Origin: an uncultured Bacteroidales bacterium
Lineage (GTDB): Bacteria > Bacteroidota > Bacteroidia > Bacteroidales > Bacteroidaceae
Assembly (NCBI GenBank): GCA_902779845.1
Contig: CACZCZ010000002.1
Location: 1 to 64,000 of the forward strand
DNA: 64,000 bases
Direction: 5' to 3'
Shown: positions 60,003 through 64,000 of the stretch, piece after piece
Numbering within the stretch: position 1 is the stretch's first letter
Layout of the letters: every line of letters begins with the position of its first letter
The notes under the pieces: generated by a model
What the model saw: only the letters and a program-made list of their open reading frames with translations
Database searches by the model: none
What the model was told of the DNA's origin: nothing
Position numbers and translations under genes: made by a program

Positions 60003-60620
60003 ATGGACTTTCTGACCTTCAGAGAAAGGATGTACCCAATGGGGTGTTTCAACATCAATCAGGTGCTGTTGTGGGAGAAGGATTTCGACCGTAACAACCT
60101 GACACGATGGTGCCGACGGGGTCTGCTTACGAAACTTCGCAACCAGTATTATGCGTTTCCAGAATATCGTCAGGTTCCCGATTTCTCACGCTATGTTGCC
60201 AACCGCATTTACGCACCCTCGTACATCAGCCTGCACAGCGCCCTGTCATTCTATGGAATGGTACCTGAAGAGGTAGTGCAGCTGACAAGTGTGACTACGC
60301 TCAAGACAGCTAAGTTCGACAATGCTTTCGGCACATTCCACTATCAGAACATAAAGACACCGCTTTATTTCGGTTACGAGATTAAGATGATGCAGGACGG
60401 GCGGGGGCTGCTGTTTGCCACACCAGAAAAGGCATTGCTCGACCTTCTCTACTTGAACCCCTACTACAAAACGGAACAGGACATGGAAGAACTCCGGTTA
60501 GACGAAGATTTCATGCAAAACGAGTTCCGCACGGAACGTCTTGCGGATTATCTCGCAAGAATCGGTAGCAAGACTTTAACTCAAAGAGTCAAACGCCTGC
60601 TAAAAACCTATGATCTATGA
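60003..60620 (+). CDS. abiEi: AbiEi-type antitoxin
   Basis: A 205-residue protein with an N-terminal winged helix (FNINQVLLWEKDFDRNNLTRW, CRRGLLTKLRNQYYAFPE) and the AbiEi region around YISLHSALSFYGMVPE and LFATPEKALLDLLYL. In type IV toxin-antitoxin AbiE systems this protein represses its own promoter and counteracts AbiEii. The stop overlaps the AbiEii start (ATGA). Confidence 0.87.
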   Translation: MDFLTFRERMYPMGCFNINQVLLWEKDFDRNNLTRWCRRGLLTKLRNQYYAFPEYRQVPDFSRYVANRIYAPSYISLHSALSFYGMVPEEVVQLTSVTTLKTAKFDNAFGTFHYQNIKTPLYFGYEIKMMQDGRGLLFATPEKALLDLLYLNPYYKTEQDMEELRLDEDFMQNEFRTERLADYLARIGSKTLTQRVKRLLKTYDL

Positions 60621-61399
60621 TTGACATTGAATACATACGCAGTTTCTTCCCTGCCACGATTGCCAAAGAAAGCCGTTTTGACCGCTATATGCTGAAGGAG
60701 TATCTGCAACTGTTGATACTCGACCATCTTTCAACCACACCTTATATCAATAAGGTGGCGTTCATCGGTGGTACAAATCTAAGACTTATCCAAGGCATCG
60801 ATCGCTTTTCTGAAGACTTGGATTTCGACTGCAAGGAGTTGAGCGAAGAAGAGTTCATGGCAATGACGGATAGTGTAGTGTCTTATCTGCGCCAGAATAA
60901 TATTGATGTGGAAACTCGTGACAAGGCCAATCCGAAGCTGACAGCGTTTAGGCGTAATCTCTATTTCCCGGAGATGCTGTTTGACTTGGGACTGACGGGA
61001 CACAAGGAAGAGCGCCTTTTGTTAAAAGTTGAAGCGCAGGATCAGGGCGTTACATACCAACCCGTTGTTGCCAACATCAACAGGATGGGGTTTTTCTTCA
61101 GTGTTCAGGTGCCGCCGTTAGATGTGCTCTGCGCTATGAAGTTCGCTGCCATACTCTCCCGCCAGAAAGGGCGCGACTTTTACGATGCCATCTTTCTGCT
61201 GTCGAAGACAAAGCCGAATTTGGATTTCCTGTCTGCCAGAGCAGGGATTTCCTCCGTTGATGAACTCAAAACAGCCATCACTGAAAGGCTGAAGGGCATT
61301 GACCTGAACCATAAGAAGCGGGACTTCTCTCATCTGGTTTTCAATGAACATCATGCAGAGAGAATACTGCGGTTCCCTGATGTCGTAGAAGCACTGTGA
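60617..61399 (+). CDS. abiEii: AbiEii-type nucleotidyltransferase toxin
   Basis: A 260-residue protein of the AbiEii/DUF1814 nucleotidyltransferase family. The catalytic signature AFIGGTNLRLIQGIDRFSED continues LDFD, giving Gly51-Gly52, Arg63, Ser65, Asp67 and Asp69. Downstream motifs RNLYFPEMLFDLGL, RLLLKVEAQ and the Lys-Gly-Arg-Asp segment RQKGRDFYDAIFLL also match. It is thought to transfer a nucleotide to tRNA and arrest growth during phage infection. ATGA overlap with AbiEi shows coupled translation. Confidence 0.9.
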   Translation: MIDIEYIRSFFPATIAKESRFDRYMLKEYLQLLILDHLSTTPYINKVAFIGGTNLRLIQGIDRFSEDLDFDCKELSEEEFMAMTDSVVSYLRQNNIDVETRDKANPKLTAFRRNLYFPEMLFDLGLTGHKEERLLLKVEAQDQGVTYQPVVANINRMGFFFSVQVPPLDVLCAMKFAAILSRQKGRDFYDAIFLLSKTKPNLDFLSARAGISSVDELKTAITERLKGIDLNHKKRDFSHLVFNEHHAERILRFPDVVEAL

Positions 61400-61527
61400 A
61401 ATGTTAAAACCAATACATTAAAACTTTCAGTTTACCGCAATTTGCTTAAATCATAAATCTCGCTATCTAACCCGCCTAAAGAAACAACCTAAAACCTCGC
61501 GATGTATAGGGAATCGTGGAAATAGTT

Positions 61528-62169
61528 ATGGAAAATAGAAGAAAATTTTATAGTTCAAATTTTAGGGGGAACCCTGGTTTGTGGAGTCAAGATACGTTTG
61601 ATCAAAGATATGATCATATCTGCGATGTATTAAATATTCACTCAATTATGGATGATGAAGACCTGAAATTTATTATTAAAAACGCTTTTGTCTCACGAAT
61701 TTATATTTCGCGTAAAGCAGAGAAAAAACTGAGAGCGGAAAAACTAAATAGCCTTCAATCACTTTATAATCAACTTATAGAAGATGGTGTCTTGGATTTG
61801 CAGGACGGCAAACATGGTTCTATATTGAGCCCATATTTTGATATATGTAAATTAGGCGATAAAGGTTTGGGTATCAGTATTGAGCATGTAGTTCCAGGTG
61901 ATGTTTGCAAGCAAGCTGCTCTAAATAGTTTTAGTAGATCTGACTTTGCCAATATTTTTAACAATGCATATATATGTCTTGTTACATCTGACCAAGCAAA
62001 GGCTCTAGACAAAAAATGGAAAAGTAATTTACCTCCAAATCCCCAAACAGGTAAACCATTCGACTTTACAAAGCATCCTTTTGCCAGATATGATCAATCA
62101 CTCGGAGGGGTCGGTATTGAAATTCATGGTTGGAAATTTAAAGATGGCAAACTTGACAAACAACCATAA
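61528..62169 (+). CDS. HNH-like protein of unknown function
   Basis: A 213-residue protein. Residues about 115-165 contain LGISIEHVVPGDVCKQ and FNNAYICLVTSDQAKALD, resembling the beta-beta-alpha HNH core (EH..P, then N..L..(N)..K). The final His of a classical HNH is not clear, so activity is uncertain. A coiled-coil-like region precedes it. A GTG start at 61516 is also possible. It lies directly after the AbiE pair and before the small-gene series with the repeated promoter. Confidence 0.5.
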   Translation: MENRRKFYSSNFRGNPGLWSQDTFDQRYDHICDVLNIHSIMDDEDLKFIIKNAFVSRIYISRKAEKKLRAEKLNSLQSLYNQLIEDGVLDLQDGKHGSILSPYFDICKLGDKGLGISIEHVVPGDVCKQAALNSFSRSDFANIFNNAYICLVTSDQAKALDKKWKSNLPPNPQTGKPFDFTKHPFARYDQSLGGVGIEIHGWKFKDGKLDKQP

Positions 62170-62186
62170 AAGGATAGGTAAGGCGA

Positions 62187-62217
62187 TTTGAATTTTTCTC
62201 CTAATCTTCCTATATTA
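62187..62217 (+). promoter_or_regulatory. iterated 31-base promoter element, copy 1
   Basis: TTTGAATTTTTCTCC, eight variable bases plus C, then TATATTA. TTTG and TATATTA are 20 bases apart, as for -33/-7 elements. It serves the 45-residue gene at 62250. Confidence 0.72.
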
Positions 62218-62249
62218 ACCTAAAGTTTAACCTTTCAAACAAAACTCTT

Positions 62250-62387
62250 ATGAAATTAAGAATTAACAAAGACTCTATAAGTGCTAATCAGTCCAAAGAA
62301 GGCATACTTCGCGCTAAAGTTGACGTACTTTTAAGAAAGATTGAGGAAATGAGGGAGGAGCTTGAAGAGTTGAAAAATAAGATTTAA
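62250..62387 (+). CDS. 45-residue coiled-coil peptide
   Basis: MKLRINKDSISANQSKEGIL, then RAKVDVLLRKIEEMREELEELKNKI. The second half is a clear heptad coiled coil (leucine/isoleucine a-d positions with Glu/Lys between). It is preceded by iterated element copy 1 at 33 bases. No family was recognised; oligomerisation or binding to a partner is inferred from the coil. Too short to judge by codon use, but the promoter supports it as real. Confidence 0.65.
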   Translation: MKLRINKDSISANQSKEGILRAKVDVLLRKIEEMREELEELKNKI

Positions 62388-62396
62388 ACCTCATCT

Positions 62397-62427
62397 TTTG
62401 AATTTGCCTCACAGTCTTTCTATATTA
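62397..62427 (+). promoter_or_regulatory. iterated 31-base promoter element, copy 2
   Basis: TTTGAATTTGCCTCA ... CTATATTA, same spacing as copy 1. The TATATTA ends only five bases before the ATG at 62433, so the transcript would be essentially leaderless. Confidence 0.72.
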
Positions 62428-62432
62428 TATAC

Positions 62433-62615
62433 ATGGAAGTCATCGGTATCATCCTTCTTCTCATCATTGCCTTTGTAGTCCTTGGCCTTCTGGGCTGGGG
62501 ACTAAAAGGCATTGGGGTGATCTTTGACTTTCTTTGGGAGGGTTGCACTACGAGCATCGGCTGCCTCTTCTGGGTTGTCATCATCCTACTATTCATCGTA
62601 GGACTGGCGCTTTGA
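62433..62615 (+). CDS. 60-residue two-helix membrane protein
   Basis: Two hydrophobic helices (GIILLLIIAFVVLGLLGWGL; IGCLFWVVIILLFIVGLAL) separated by a short loop with two cysteines and acidic residues (FDFLWEGCTTSIGC). Probably an inner-membrane protein; no named family was recognised. It sits directly after promoter copy 2, and the predicted mRNA start coincides with the ATG. Confidence 0.6.
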   Translation: MEVIGIILLLIIAFVVLGLLGWGLKGIGVIFDFLWEGCTTSIGCLFWVVIILLFIVGLAL

Positions 62616-62668
62616 AGTCCTGTTTACAAAAATCTGCATATTTGTCGTGTTAAAAAAAACGAACGTGA

Positions 62669-62699
62669 TTTAAATTTTTCTGGCATTGTGTCTATATTG
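62669..62699 (+). promoter_or_regulatory. iterated 31-base promoter element, copy 3
   Basis: TTTAAATTTTTCTGG ... CTATATTG, same internal spacing; one change in TTTG and one in TATATTA. It lies 27 bases before the AAA ATPase gene. Confidence 0.7.
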
Positions 62700-62725
62700 T
62701 GTTTGTTATGTAAATTGAATGCAAT

Positions 62726-63568
62726 ATGTACTACTTACACAATTTTCAGCCCTACATGGATAGCAAGCATCTCTATCCTTGGCGTGTCATCTATCCAATG
62801 CAGTTAGAACACATAGAGTTTGCTCCCATCACCATTTTCTATGGTAACAACGGTTGTGGAAAATCCACACTCTTAAATGTTATTGCAGAGCGCATCGGAA
62901 TAAAAAACAAAACGCAGGGAAATAGCAATGAGTATTTTGAGAACTATGTGAAGAAATGCACATATTCAGGTGATGACGAGATGCCAGAAGACAGCGCTTT
63001 CATCCGTAGTGAGGACATTATGGCAGGCATAACCAAGAGACGCGAAAGGTTTGCCCGAATGAAAGCAGAATTGCTGAATGGAAAAATGAGTAAGGATATT
63101 AAGGATTATGGAGTTAGCACAAGACTATATCAAAAAGCGCTGACGGCCCCTGACGAAGTAGATCCTTCTGAATATGCTAGGCTGTCGAGATTATCCGATT
63201 TTGCCAGCACCCGCTCTGCATTAGCATCGGGCAGCGTAGATTTTATGTCGAATGGCGAGAAGGCTTTGGAGTTCTTTAGGGATCATTTGTTTGAAGATAC
63301 ACTCTATTTGCTTGACGAACCTGAGAATTCGATGGCACCTGCCTATCAGCAGGAACTGGCCAGAGAAATCTCGCTCTTGGCATATCGTCTTCATAGCCAA
63401 TTCATCATTGCTACCCATTCGCCATTTATGCTTTCAATAGAACATGCCAGAATCTATGATCTGGATGCAAGGCCGGCACGAATGCGGGAGTGGTACCAAT
63501 TAGAGAATATGCAGACATACTACCAGCTATTCAAGCGGTTTGAAAAAAGATTCGAAGGGAACCATTGA
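62726..63568 (+). CDS. AAA_21-like ATPase
   Basis: A 280-residue ABC/SMC-type ATPase. Walker A GNNGCGKS is residues 40-47 in ITIFYGNNGCGKSTLLNVIAER. A signature-like MSNGEKALEFF follows a helical insert, then Walker B TLYLLDEPENSM (about 195) and the switch FIIATHSPFML. Such single-domain ATPases often partner a nuclease or effector in defence systems, but no obvious effector overlaps. A 93-residue acidic protein follows 82 bases later. Driven by promoter copy 3. Confidence 0.82.
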   Translation: MYYLHNFQPYMDSKHLYPWRVIYPMQLEHIEFAPITIFYGNNGCGKSTLLNVIAERIGIKNKTQGNSNEYFENYVKKCTYSGDDEMPEDSAFIRSEDIMAGITKRRERFARMKAELLNGKMSKDIKDYGVSTRLYQKALTAPDEVDPSEYARLSRLSDFASTRSALASGSVDFMSNGEKALEFFRDHLFEDTLYLLDEPENSMAPAYQQELAREISLLAYRLHSQFIIATHSPFMLSIEHARIYDLDARPARMREWYQLENMQTYYQLFKRFEKRFEGNH

Positions 63569-63650
63569 TCCTGTCTGAAAAAGTTGAACGATTTATGAAA
63601 ATCTCTGATGATGTGACTAAATTAGTAAAGAATCATTGACAATAATCACC

Positions 63651-63932
63651 ATGCAAGACTGGAGCAAATATATTGAGATGCCTTATAAAGAGGTGCTGGC
63701 GGAACTGATAGCAGAGGGCTATCAGGTAGTGGATGACAGCCTCTTTGCTGGATATAGAAATACAGAACTGCAAAAGGATGACATCAAGATCCAATTGCTT
63801 TGCGATCCTTTTGATATGGATGACTTCGAGGAGAAAGAAAGATCAGAAGAAGTATTCAGCTTAGATGATTCCGAATGGGTTGTTGAAGATGTCTTTGAGA
63901 ATGGAGAATCATATATAGAGGCCAACTGGTAA
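63651..63932 (+). CDS. 93-residue acidic protein
   Basis: MQDWSKYIEMPYKEVLAELI, then a very acidic second half (CDPFDMDDFEEKERSEEVF, SLDDSEWVVEDVFENGE). No family was recognised. Acidic small proteins next to ATPases can be inhibitors or antitoxins, but that is speculation. It follows the AAA ATPase and precedes promoter copy 4. A start at 63636 (TTG) is less likely. Confidence 0.55.
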   Translation: MQDWSKYIEMPYKEVLAELIAEGYQVVDDSLFAGYRNTELQKDDIKIQLLCDPFDMDDFEEKERSEEVFSLDDSEWVVEDVFENGESYIEANW

Positions 63933-63948
63933 AAAAGTCACCCTGATT

Positions 63949-63979
63949 TTTGAATTTTTCTCCAATAGTTACTATATTA
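63949..63979 (+). promoter_or_regulatory. iterated 31-base promoter element, copy 4
   Basis: TTTGAATTTTTCTCC ... CTATATTA, identical to copy 1 in both blocks. It faces a gene beyond the window end. Confidence 0.72.
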
Positions 63980-64000
63980 TCATCGAAAACCAATATAAAC

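Follow-up and report, generated by a model that had tools for sequence, protein, structure and literature searches.

Near the right end of a 64,000-nucleotide stretch of DNA from an uncultured Bacteroidales bacterium (the window, positions 1 to 64,000 of contig C2), a 31-bp promoter-like element is repeated ahead of small unrelated genes, which raises the question of what reads it and to what system its genes belong. A preliminary description of this DNA had placed copies at 62187, 62397, 62669 and 63949 and proposed a small regulon with its own sigma factor or activator. All four copies are present at these positions, and the features of the region are as follows.

60003..60620, + strand: AbiEi-like antitoxin gene at the array's left edge (PADLOC 9e-79)
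60617..61399, + strand: AbiEii-like toxin gene at the array's left edge (PADLOC 1.3e-104)
61494..61516, + strand: second repeated motif, ACCTCGCGATGTATAGGGAATCG, just ahead of a start codon (61528)
62187..62217, + strand: promoter element copy 1, TTTGAATTTTTCTCCTAATCTTCCTATATTA; TTGAAT-17-TATATT, with an ATG 32 nt downstream
62250..62387, + strand: gene behind copy 1, for a 45-aa peptide described earlier as coiled-coil-like; no Pfam family over cut-off
62397..62427, + strand: promoter element copy 2, TTTGAATTTGCCTCACAGTCTTTCTATATTA; ATG 5 nt downstream (62433)
62433..62615, + strand: gene for a 60-aa two-helix membrane protein, with a homologue in phage contig G140 (55.6% over 45 aa)
62669..62699, + strand: promoter element copy 3, TTTAAATTTTTCTGGCATTGTGTCTATATTG; TTTA at the start and TATATTG at the end, ATG 26 nt downstream (62726)
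62726..63568, + strand: gene for a 280-aa AAA_21/AAA_15 ATPase, PtuA-like by PADLOC (4.6e-17)
63594..63624, + strand: possible degenerate copy, GTGACTAAATTA; weak and perhaps due to chance, ATG 26 nt downstream (63651)
63651..63932, + strand: gene for a 93-aa protein starting MQDWSKYIE; no Pfam family, and an ORF with a similar start at C2:72837
63949..63979, + strand: promoter element copy 4, TTTGAATTTTTCTCCAATAGTTACTATATTA; its gene begins past the window, at C2:64008
C2:64008-64778: gene behind copy 4, an NT5C 5'-nucleotidase fused to a truncated sigma-70 region 1.2/2

Copies and anatomy of the element

A search of the window with the consensus given in the preliminary description returned 3 matches at ≤3 mismatches against an average of 0.00 in 100 shuffled windows, so the motif is not equally frequent in random sequence. 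That consensus suits three of the copies; copy 3 departs from it (TTTA, CTGG and a final G) and is not among the matches. Since the ATG of copy 2 lies only 5 nt downstream, its transcript may be nearly leaderless. The possible copy at 63594 scored 15.3 with our first matrix, a value within reach of simulated DNA (the best of 20 simulated 11.6-kb regions reached 20.8), and it is absent from the list of the later matrix at score ≥10. To cover the whole genome (2.92 Mb, an incomplete assembly) we used the pattern TTTRAATTTTTCT-N10-CTATATTA at ≤3 mismatches, with the reversed pattern as control. Out of 9 matches, against 0 in the control, 8 lie on C2 at 62187-73032, all on the + strand, and the ninth (3 mismatches) falls within a coding region on C5. 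Strong copies beyond the window stand at C2 65112, 70739, 72349 and 73002, with a weak one at C2 64874. The array thus comprises 8 strong co-oriented copies across 11 kb, up to contig position 73032, of which the preliminary description had seen only the left end. On its left the array borders an esterase/AbiE region; on its right lie, as identified by eye, TPR-like and peptide deformylase-like genes. Rfam returned a single match on 61380-64000, far under the cut-off and taken as chance.

We built a logo from 68 copies; like the first matrix it still included look-alikes upstream of rpoD, the loci of which the second matrix leaves out. It shows an A-tract at -18 to -13, then TTTGAATTTTTCT, GTKAC and TATATTAT, with a purine following 6 nt later. 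Relatives also keep the fixed length and the C ahead of TATATTA that had been pointed out earlier (C in 68/68 copies, the search pattern itself having demanded C). Positions 2-3 are TT in nearly all copies and position 4 is G in 48/68 and A in 20/68, which means that the -33 TTTG of the canonical Bacteroidetes promoter is present in part of the copies. Rather than as -33/-7-like boxes, the earlier reading, the geometry is better given as TTGAAT-17-TATATT, a spacing seen in 117 host copies (16 bp in 3 more). An ATG ORF of at least 45 aa starts 20-40 nt downstream of 98 out of 146 host copies. At shifted places such an ORF follows in 0-22 of 135-143 cases, and in the opposite direction in 5 of 142. 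The element is thus directional and mostly located at a fixed distance ahead of an ATG. From this position and from its anatomy we are confident in predicting that it is a promoter, with transcription probably beginning on the purine located some 6 nt beyond TATATTA.

The canonical consensus of Bacteroidetes promoters is -33 TTTG and -7 TAnnTTTG in the accessible part of the source (PMC7366714). Like this sigma-ABfr promoter, the element has TTTG or TTTA at its 5' end and TAnnTT in its downstream box. In contrast to it, the element reads TATATTAt and not TAnnTTTG, conserves AATTTTTCT after TTTG, and keeps its hexamers at a spacing nearly fixed at 17 bp. The canonical -7 box TAnnTTYG[CT] occurs in 29/30 rpoD upstream regions of the genus, and TAnnTTTG[CT] precedes 8 of the 43 window ORFs (0.8 expected). 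Around the elements, at -40..+30, TAnnTTTG[CT] occurs in only 7 out of 146 cases, as the preliminary description had anticipated in setting the element apart from TAnnTTTG promoters; it very likely represents a class distinct from the host's usual one. Genus matches in three genomes (G006, G018 and G077) precede rpoD, which was considered as a regulon member and rejected. Since rpoD regions carry the canonical box, which the look-alikes overlap, and mostly score negative on the element matrix (21/30), these three genomes were dropped. A literature search, with subscription journals mostly outside its reach, returned no title or abstract opening on the element.

Spread and gene content of the array

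At ≤1 mismatch the element matched 18/139 genomes of the genus, with no control match in any of them, and 15 remain after removal of the rpoD look-alikes. Scanning genome_contigs for exact copies returned 40 stretches with the element, 38 of them labelled Bacteroidales, Prevotellaceae, Prevotella, Bacteroidaceae or Porphyromonadaceae (one of these, L074, is an rpoD look-alike). The other two are labelled Lachnospiraceae and Firmicutes, the latter being phage contig G141. Many titles of element-bearing records name ruminants or the RUG series, which we take to be from rumen. The 16 genomes from the exact scan hold 1 to 10 matches each at ≤3 mismatches; some of these are chance matches, because controls reach 0-1 each. 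At least 4 co-oriented copies lie on one contig in 8 of the 16 (G148, G149, G151, G152, G155, G159, G160 and G162), a single copy occurs in 3 (G153, G157 and G161), and copies are scattered or on mixed strands in G150, G156 and G158. Prevotella sp. ne3005 (G148), a record without a MAG label, has five copies on contig NZ_FOCK01000009 (C17), at 72158, 79066, 80909, 85944 and 86486. The end of its cluster adjoins thrS, infC, rpmI and rplT (genes read by eye), an arrangement in favor of a chromosomal location.

Defence genes were sought with PADLOC in 10 proteins, 7 from the array and its edge and 3 from relatives. Apart from the matches listed above, this gave IetA-like (9.4e-33) and PDC-S26 (3.8e-29) similarities in the array and a PDC-S31 similarity in G104; two proteins had no match and two more had partial or weak ones (MzaA over the sigma part, Cas4). 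Judged by similarity, known defence genes are clustered here as in a defence island. No defence function is known for the majority of genes in the array. The AbiEi gene has no element ahead of it in the window, and its homologue in G081 (L056 +10528, homology by eye) stands behind a strong copy. When 121 proteins encoded behind elements were grouped by linkage, a set that includes rpoD look-alikes and a few phage proteins, the linked groups were sigma/NT5C (21), a 70-aa family ending in ALAA (15), an MDKEQ-type protein group (12), AAA proteins (5), PDDEXK-type nucleases (4) and smaller ones, beside many singletons. Among 29 array and edge proteins scanned with Pfam we recognized no virion genes and named no integrase, packaging or hijack genes.

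Truncated RpoD-like proteins, with region 1.2-2.4 or region 2 alone, are array members in several genomes. They retain the -10 helix of RpoD, stop before region 3 and lack region 4. The members, one of them fused to the nucleotidase, and those of the family of about 70 aa are located as follows.

C2:64008-64778; L070:7621-7998; L071:4663-4884; L055:8986-9192; L255:13126-13458: truncated RpoD-like members
L041:299-511; L070:5810-6028; L079:3891-4106; others; own copy near C2:73062-73283: ALAA family of about 70 aa

We also considered truncated sigmas as a necessary reader of the element and rejected this, as none of 12 loci chosen by protein and blind to the element (11 short sigmas and 1 rpoD fragment) lies behind it. 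These loci mostly represent a separate family of short chromosomal RpoD-like sigmas (L180-L190, 116-210 aa), which has a conserved upstream region with CGTATA and no element.

Several further observations concern the array. The C-terminal ALAA of the family of about 70 aa resembles the ssrA degradation tag; 11 of 12 members listed end in ALAA and 1 in AHAA, and the endings ALVA and AHVA occur in another set, which was selected on the ending. A tmRNA origin of this ending was discarded, ARAGORN having found no tmRNA in 7 loci. In some loci a gene for a 555-561-aa AAA+ ATPase lies near this family. The right end of the array carries second copies of the two-helix membrane gene (C2:72639-72821, with no element of its own directly upstream) and of the MQDWSKYIE gene start (C2:72837-73283). 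The second motif, ACCTCRCGATGTATAGGnAATCG, stands just before start codons, may form a CGAT/ATCG stem and is found in 15/139 genomes of the genus, 8 of which also bear the element (Fisher p=1e-5); the phage loci examined hold no copy of it within 4 mismatches.

The element in large phages

The exact element is present in four IMG/VR contigs, two of which are very large (G140, 193 kb, and G141, 410 kb). At ≤3 mismatches G140 has 16 matches and G141 has 10, with 0 in the control. The top-ranking upstream 8-mers of G140, G144 and G145 are pieces of the element, which are also among the top ones in G141; the upstream regions of G140 and G141 are enriched in these pieces and nearly without TAnnTTTG. 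With a matrix trained on host copies only, summing spacers of 17 and 16 bp at score 15, we scanned parts of contigs G140, G141, G143, G144, G145 and G147. This gave 16 sites in G140, 24 in G141, 23 in G145 (140 kb), 7 in G144 and 7 in G147, and none in G143 or in 150 kb of DNA of Lak, a group of Prevotella megaphages, with 0-0.7 in simulated DNA. The spacer is mostly 16 bp in the phages that carry the sigma factor described below, and 17 bp in the chromosomal copies and in G140. The array element very probably belongs to the same class as the megaphage promoter (TTGAAT, 16-17 bp, CTATATTA), with 17 bp in the array copies.

Genes are shared as well. ORFs directly behind elements match phage DNA in 16 of 125 cases and distant ORFs in 0 of 65 (Fisher p=0.0015), although the 16 cases are not independent, since 7 are NT5C and 4 sigma fragments; the rest are 2 repeat proteins, 2 leucine-rich-type proteins and 1 other. 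The homologue of the two-helix protein in G140 stands behind an element-like promoter (a TTAAAT variant), and so does an NT5C in G141 that resembles the NT5C of the array (44.4% over 153 aa). Searching IMG/VR for NT5C gave one further relative, 79% identical and with no element nearby. Matches to Lak DNA were obtained for 9/125 ORFs behind elements, all through the sigma part, and for 0/65 distant ORFs. Among 50,697 phage records the topoisomerase of G140 is nearest to Lak phages; its identity is 87.5% to that of G141, 64.5% to G144, 62.0% to G143, 52.7% to Lak-B1 and 52.5% to G145 and G146.

G141 encodes a 412-aa sigma factor, for which tblastn gave no match at 1e-5 in the 50,697 phage records and none at E≤1e-12 in the 139 genomes of the genus (a search without positive control). 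A scan with this protein led to five more contigs (G143, G144, G145, G146 and G147). Although found by the sigma alone, four of the five show the element, exactly or by matrix: G145 has 20 exact copies (control 1), G146 has 9 (0) and G144 has 2 (1), and G147 has matrix sites. Exact copies number 0 in G143, G147, Lak-A2 and Lak-B1. Measured by topoisomerase, G145 and Lak-B1 stand at nearly the same distance from G141 (53.5% and 54.0% identity), and only the sigma-bearing G145 has the element. G141, having been found through the element, does not belong to this blind test, and the number of independent phages in it is small, since G145 and G146, with the same sigma identity and several identical sites, look like one lineage. 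As judged by eye, and with irregular spacing of up to 19, an element-like sequence precedes the sigma gene in G141, G144, G145, G146 and G147. None precedes it in G143, which has a 72%-identical sigma and no element. In the 193-kb fragment of G140 no such sigma was seen, though the topoisomerase of G140 is close to that of G141. As a separate observation, genes of G143 (L196, L205-L207) are preceded by CTATTTTA-type sequences, which may represent a shifted promoter.

Candidate readers of the element and known systems

The explanation that we favor, with a probability of about 0.48, is a defence or accessory array in gut Prevotella whose promoters would be read by a megaphage sigma factor during infection. 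In this explanation the element is a non-canonical promoter, with an upstream A-tract, TTGAAT(TTTTCT), 17 bp and C-TATATT-A, placed before many separate genes of a chromosomal array. The same class serves large phages related to Lak, one of which, with its kin, carries the 412-aa protein of sigma-70 type. Together with the host core RNA polymerase, this phage sigma would read the chromosomal copies during a putative infection, so that an array little used until the arrival of the megaphage would be transcribed alongside the phage genes. Reading of the element by the megaphage sigma in infected cells, taken by itself, has in our estimate slightly short of even odds. Co-occurrence of sigma and promoter in the phages suggests both the recognition and the induction on infection, and gene content together with the promoter suggests an infection-triggered defence. 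Several points count against this explanation: the spacers differ (16 versus 17 bp), G140 shows no sigma, G143 has the sigma without the element, and exact copies number only 2 in G144, where the control gives 1, and 0 in G147. A more elaborate version, in which promoters matched to the sigma of infecting megaphages fire the defence and the RpoD stubs of the array interfere with or tune the phage holoenzyme, we consider unlikely.

Alternatively, a host sigma might read the element, either RpoD tolerating TATATTA or an alternative/ECF factor; the phages would borrow it, and the array would be constitutive or stress-expressed. We regard this as possible although doubtful. It would account for G140, which uses the element with no sigma detected, and for the few rpoD promoters that hold an element-like stretch, but those stretches overlap the TAnnTTYG box of the genus's ordinary promoters. 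A precedent may be PM2 of B. thetaiotaomicron, with boxes near -10/-30 and no known sigma in the accessible part of its source (PMC7366714), the comparison here covering box positions. Against a host sigma, strong copies in the source genome occur only within the array, Lak phages show TATCTTTG instead, and the copy-rich genome G104 (about 85% complete) has no RpoD-like paralogue at E≤1e-5. The array could also be a decayed or domesticated piece of a megaphage, or its morons, with promoters that are relics and have no present regulatory role. The shared gene families, and the element-like promoters that NT5C and the two-helix protein have in phage too, agree with such an origin, which is nevertheless quite improbable given that the element is kept in 15/139 genomes of the genus and in other species with a spacer nearly fixed at 17, and that no virion genes were recognized among the 29 proteins scanned. 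Finally, that the truncated RpoD fragments (region 1.2-2.4 only), alone or partnered, form a dedicated holoenzyme in a self-contained regulon is very improbable: they do recur directly behind the element, once fused to NT5C behind copy 4, but they end before region 3, lack region 4 and keep the -10 helix of RpoD, G104 has many copies and no such fragment at E≤1e-5, and no element precedes any of the 11 short sigmas encoded elsewhere in the genus.

Returning to the favored reading by a megaphage sigma, the proposal of a dedicated sigma factor may have been right in spirit, as the promoter marks phage contigs with the 412-aa sigma, the RpoD fragments of the array being improbable as readers. The proposed small regulon holds in that an element of its own class precedes recurring genes; strong copies in the source genome are nevertheless confined to one accessory array, with no sign of an ordinary host regulon. 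If the favored reading is true, a bacterial defence would be made conditional simply by wiring it to the invader's transcription signal. The promoter would then be a signature for a megaphage group known here from metagenome records only and a lead for linking these megaphages to hosts, and further phage-tied gene arrays could be found by promoter alone.

Among known systems, one close comparison is with the Lak megaphages. The topoisomerase II of G140, G141, G143, G144, G145 and G146 is related to that of Lak (52.7% and 54.0% identity to Lak-B1 for G140 and G141), and both phage groups carry a sigma-70 factor. The Lak sigma, however, is another protein (339 aa, in Lak-A2), so that an initial assumption of Lak phages without a sigma of their own was wrong, and Lak upstream regions show TATCTTTG in place of the element. 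Loose matches, at 3 mismatches, numbered 2 each in Lak-A2 and Lak-C1, versus 1 each in the control. We also observed a TGTATCTTTGT promoter-like signal ahead of genes in Lak-A2 and Lak-B1 (L192, L193, L194).

Phage-encoded multisubunit RNA polymerases are divergent, and the RNA polymerase beta domain PF00562 was not found in G139-G142, records that may be fragments. The early promoters of the phiKZ/AR9 virion RNA polymerase offer a likeness, since the AR9 consensus, AAATATATATTAT-6N-G in the accessible part of its source (PMC5312081), contains the TATATTAT of the element. The element differs in that its motif includes a TTGAAT box 16-17 bp upstream. PLE and PICI are phage-inducible islands. 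The jumbo-phage satellite I55 travels with a jumbo phage and carries genes with a putative role in defence, according to the accessible part of its source (PMC12595487). As in PLE, PICI and I55, chromosomal genes would here be tied to one phage group; unlike in these systems, the connection is made at each gene separately, through a shared promoter, with no integrase or hijack genes recognized in the proteins scanned. RsoA/SigO of Bacillus is a two-subunit sigma with a region-2-only sigma protein. The fragments of the array are likewise sigma proteins of the region-2-only type, but they resemble RpoD.
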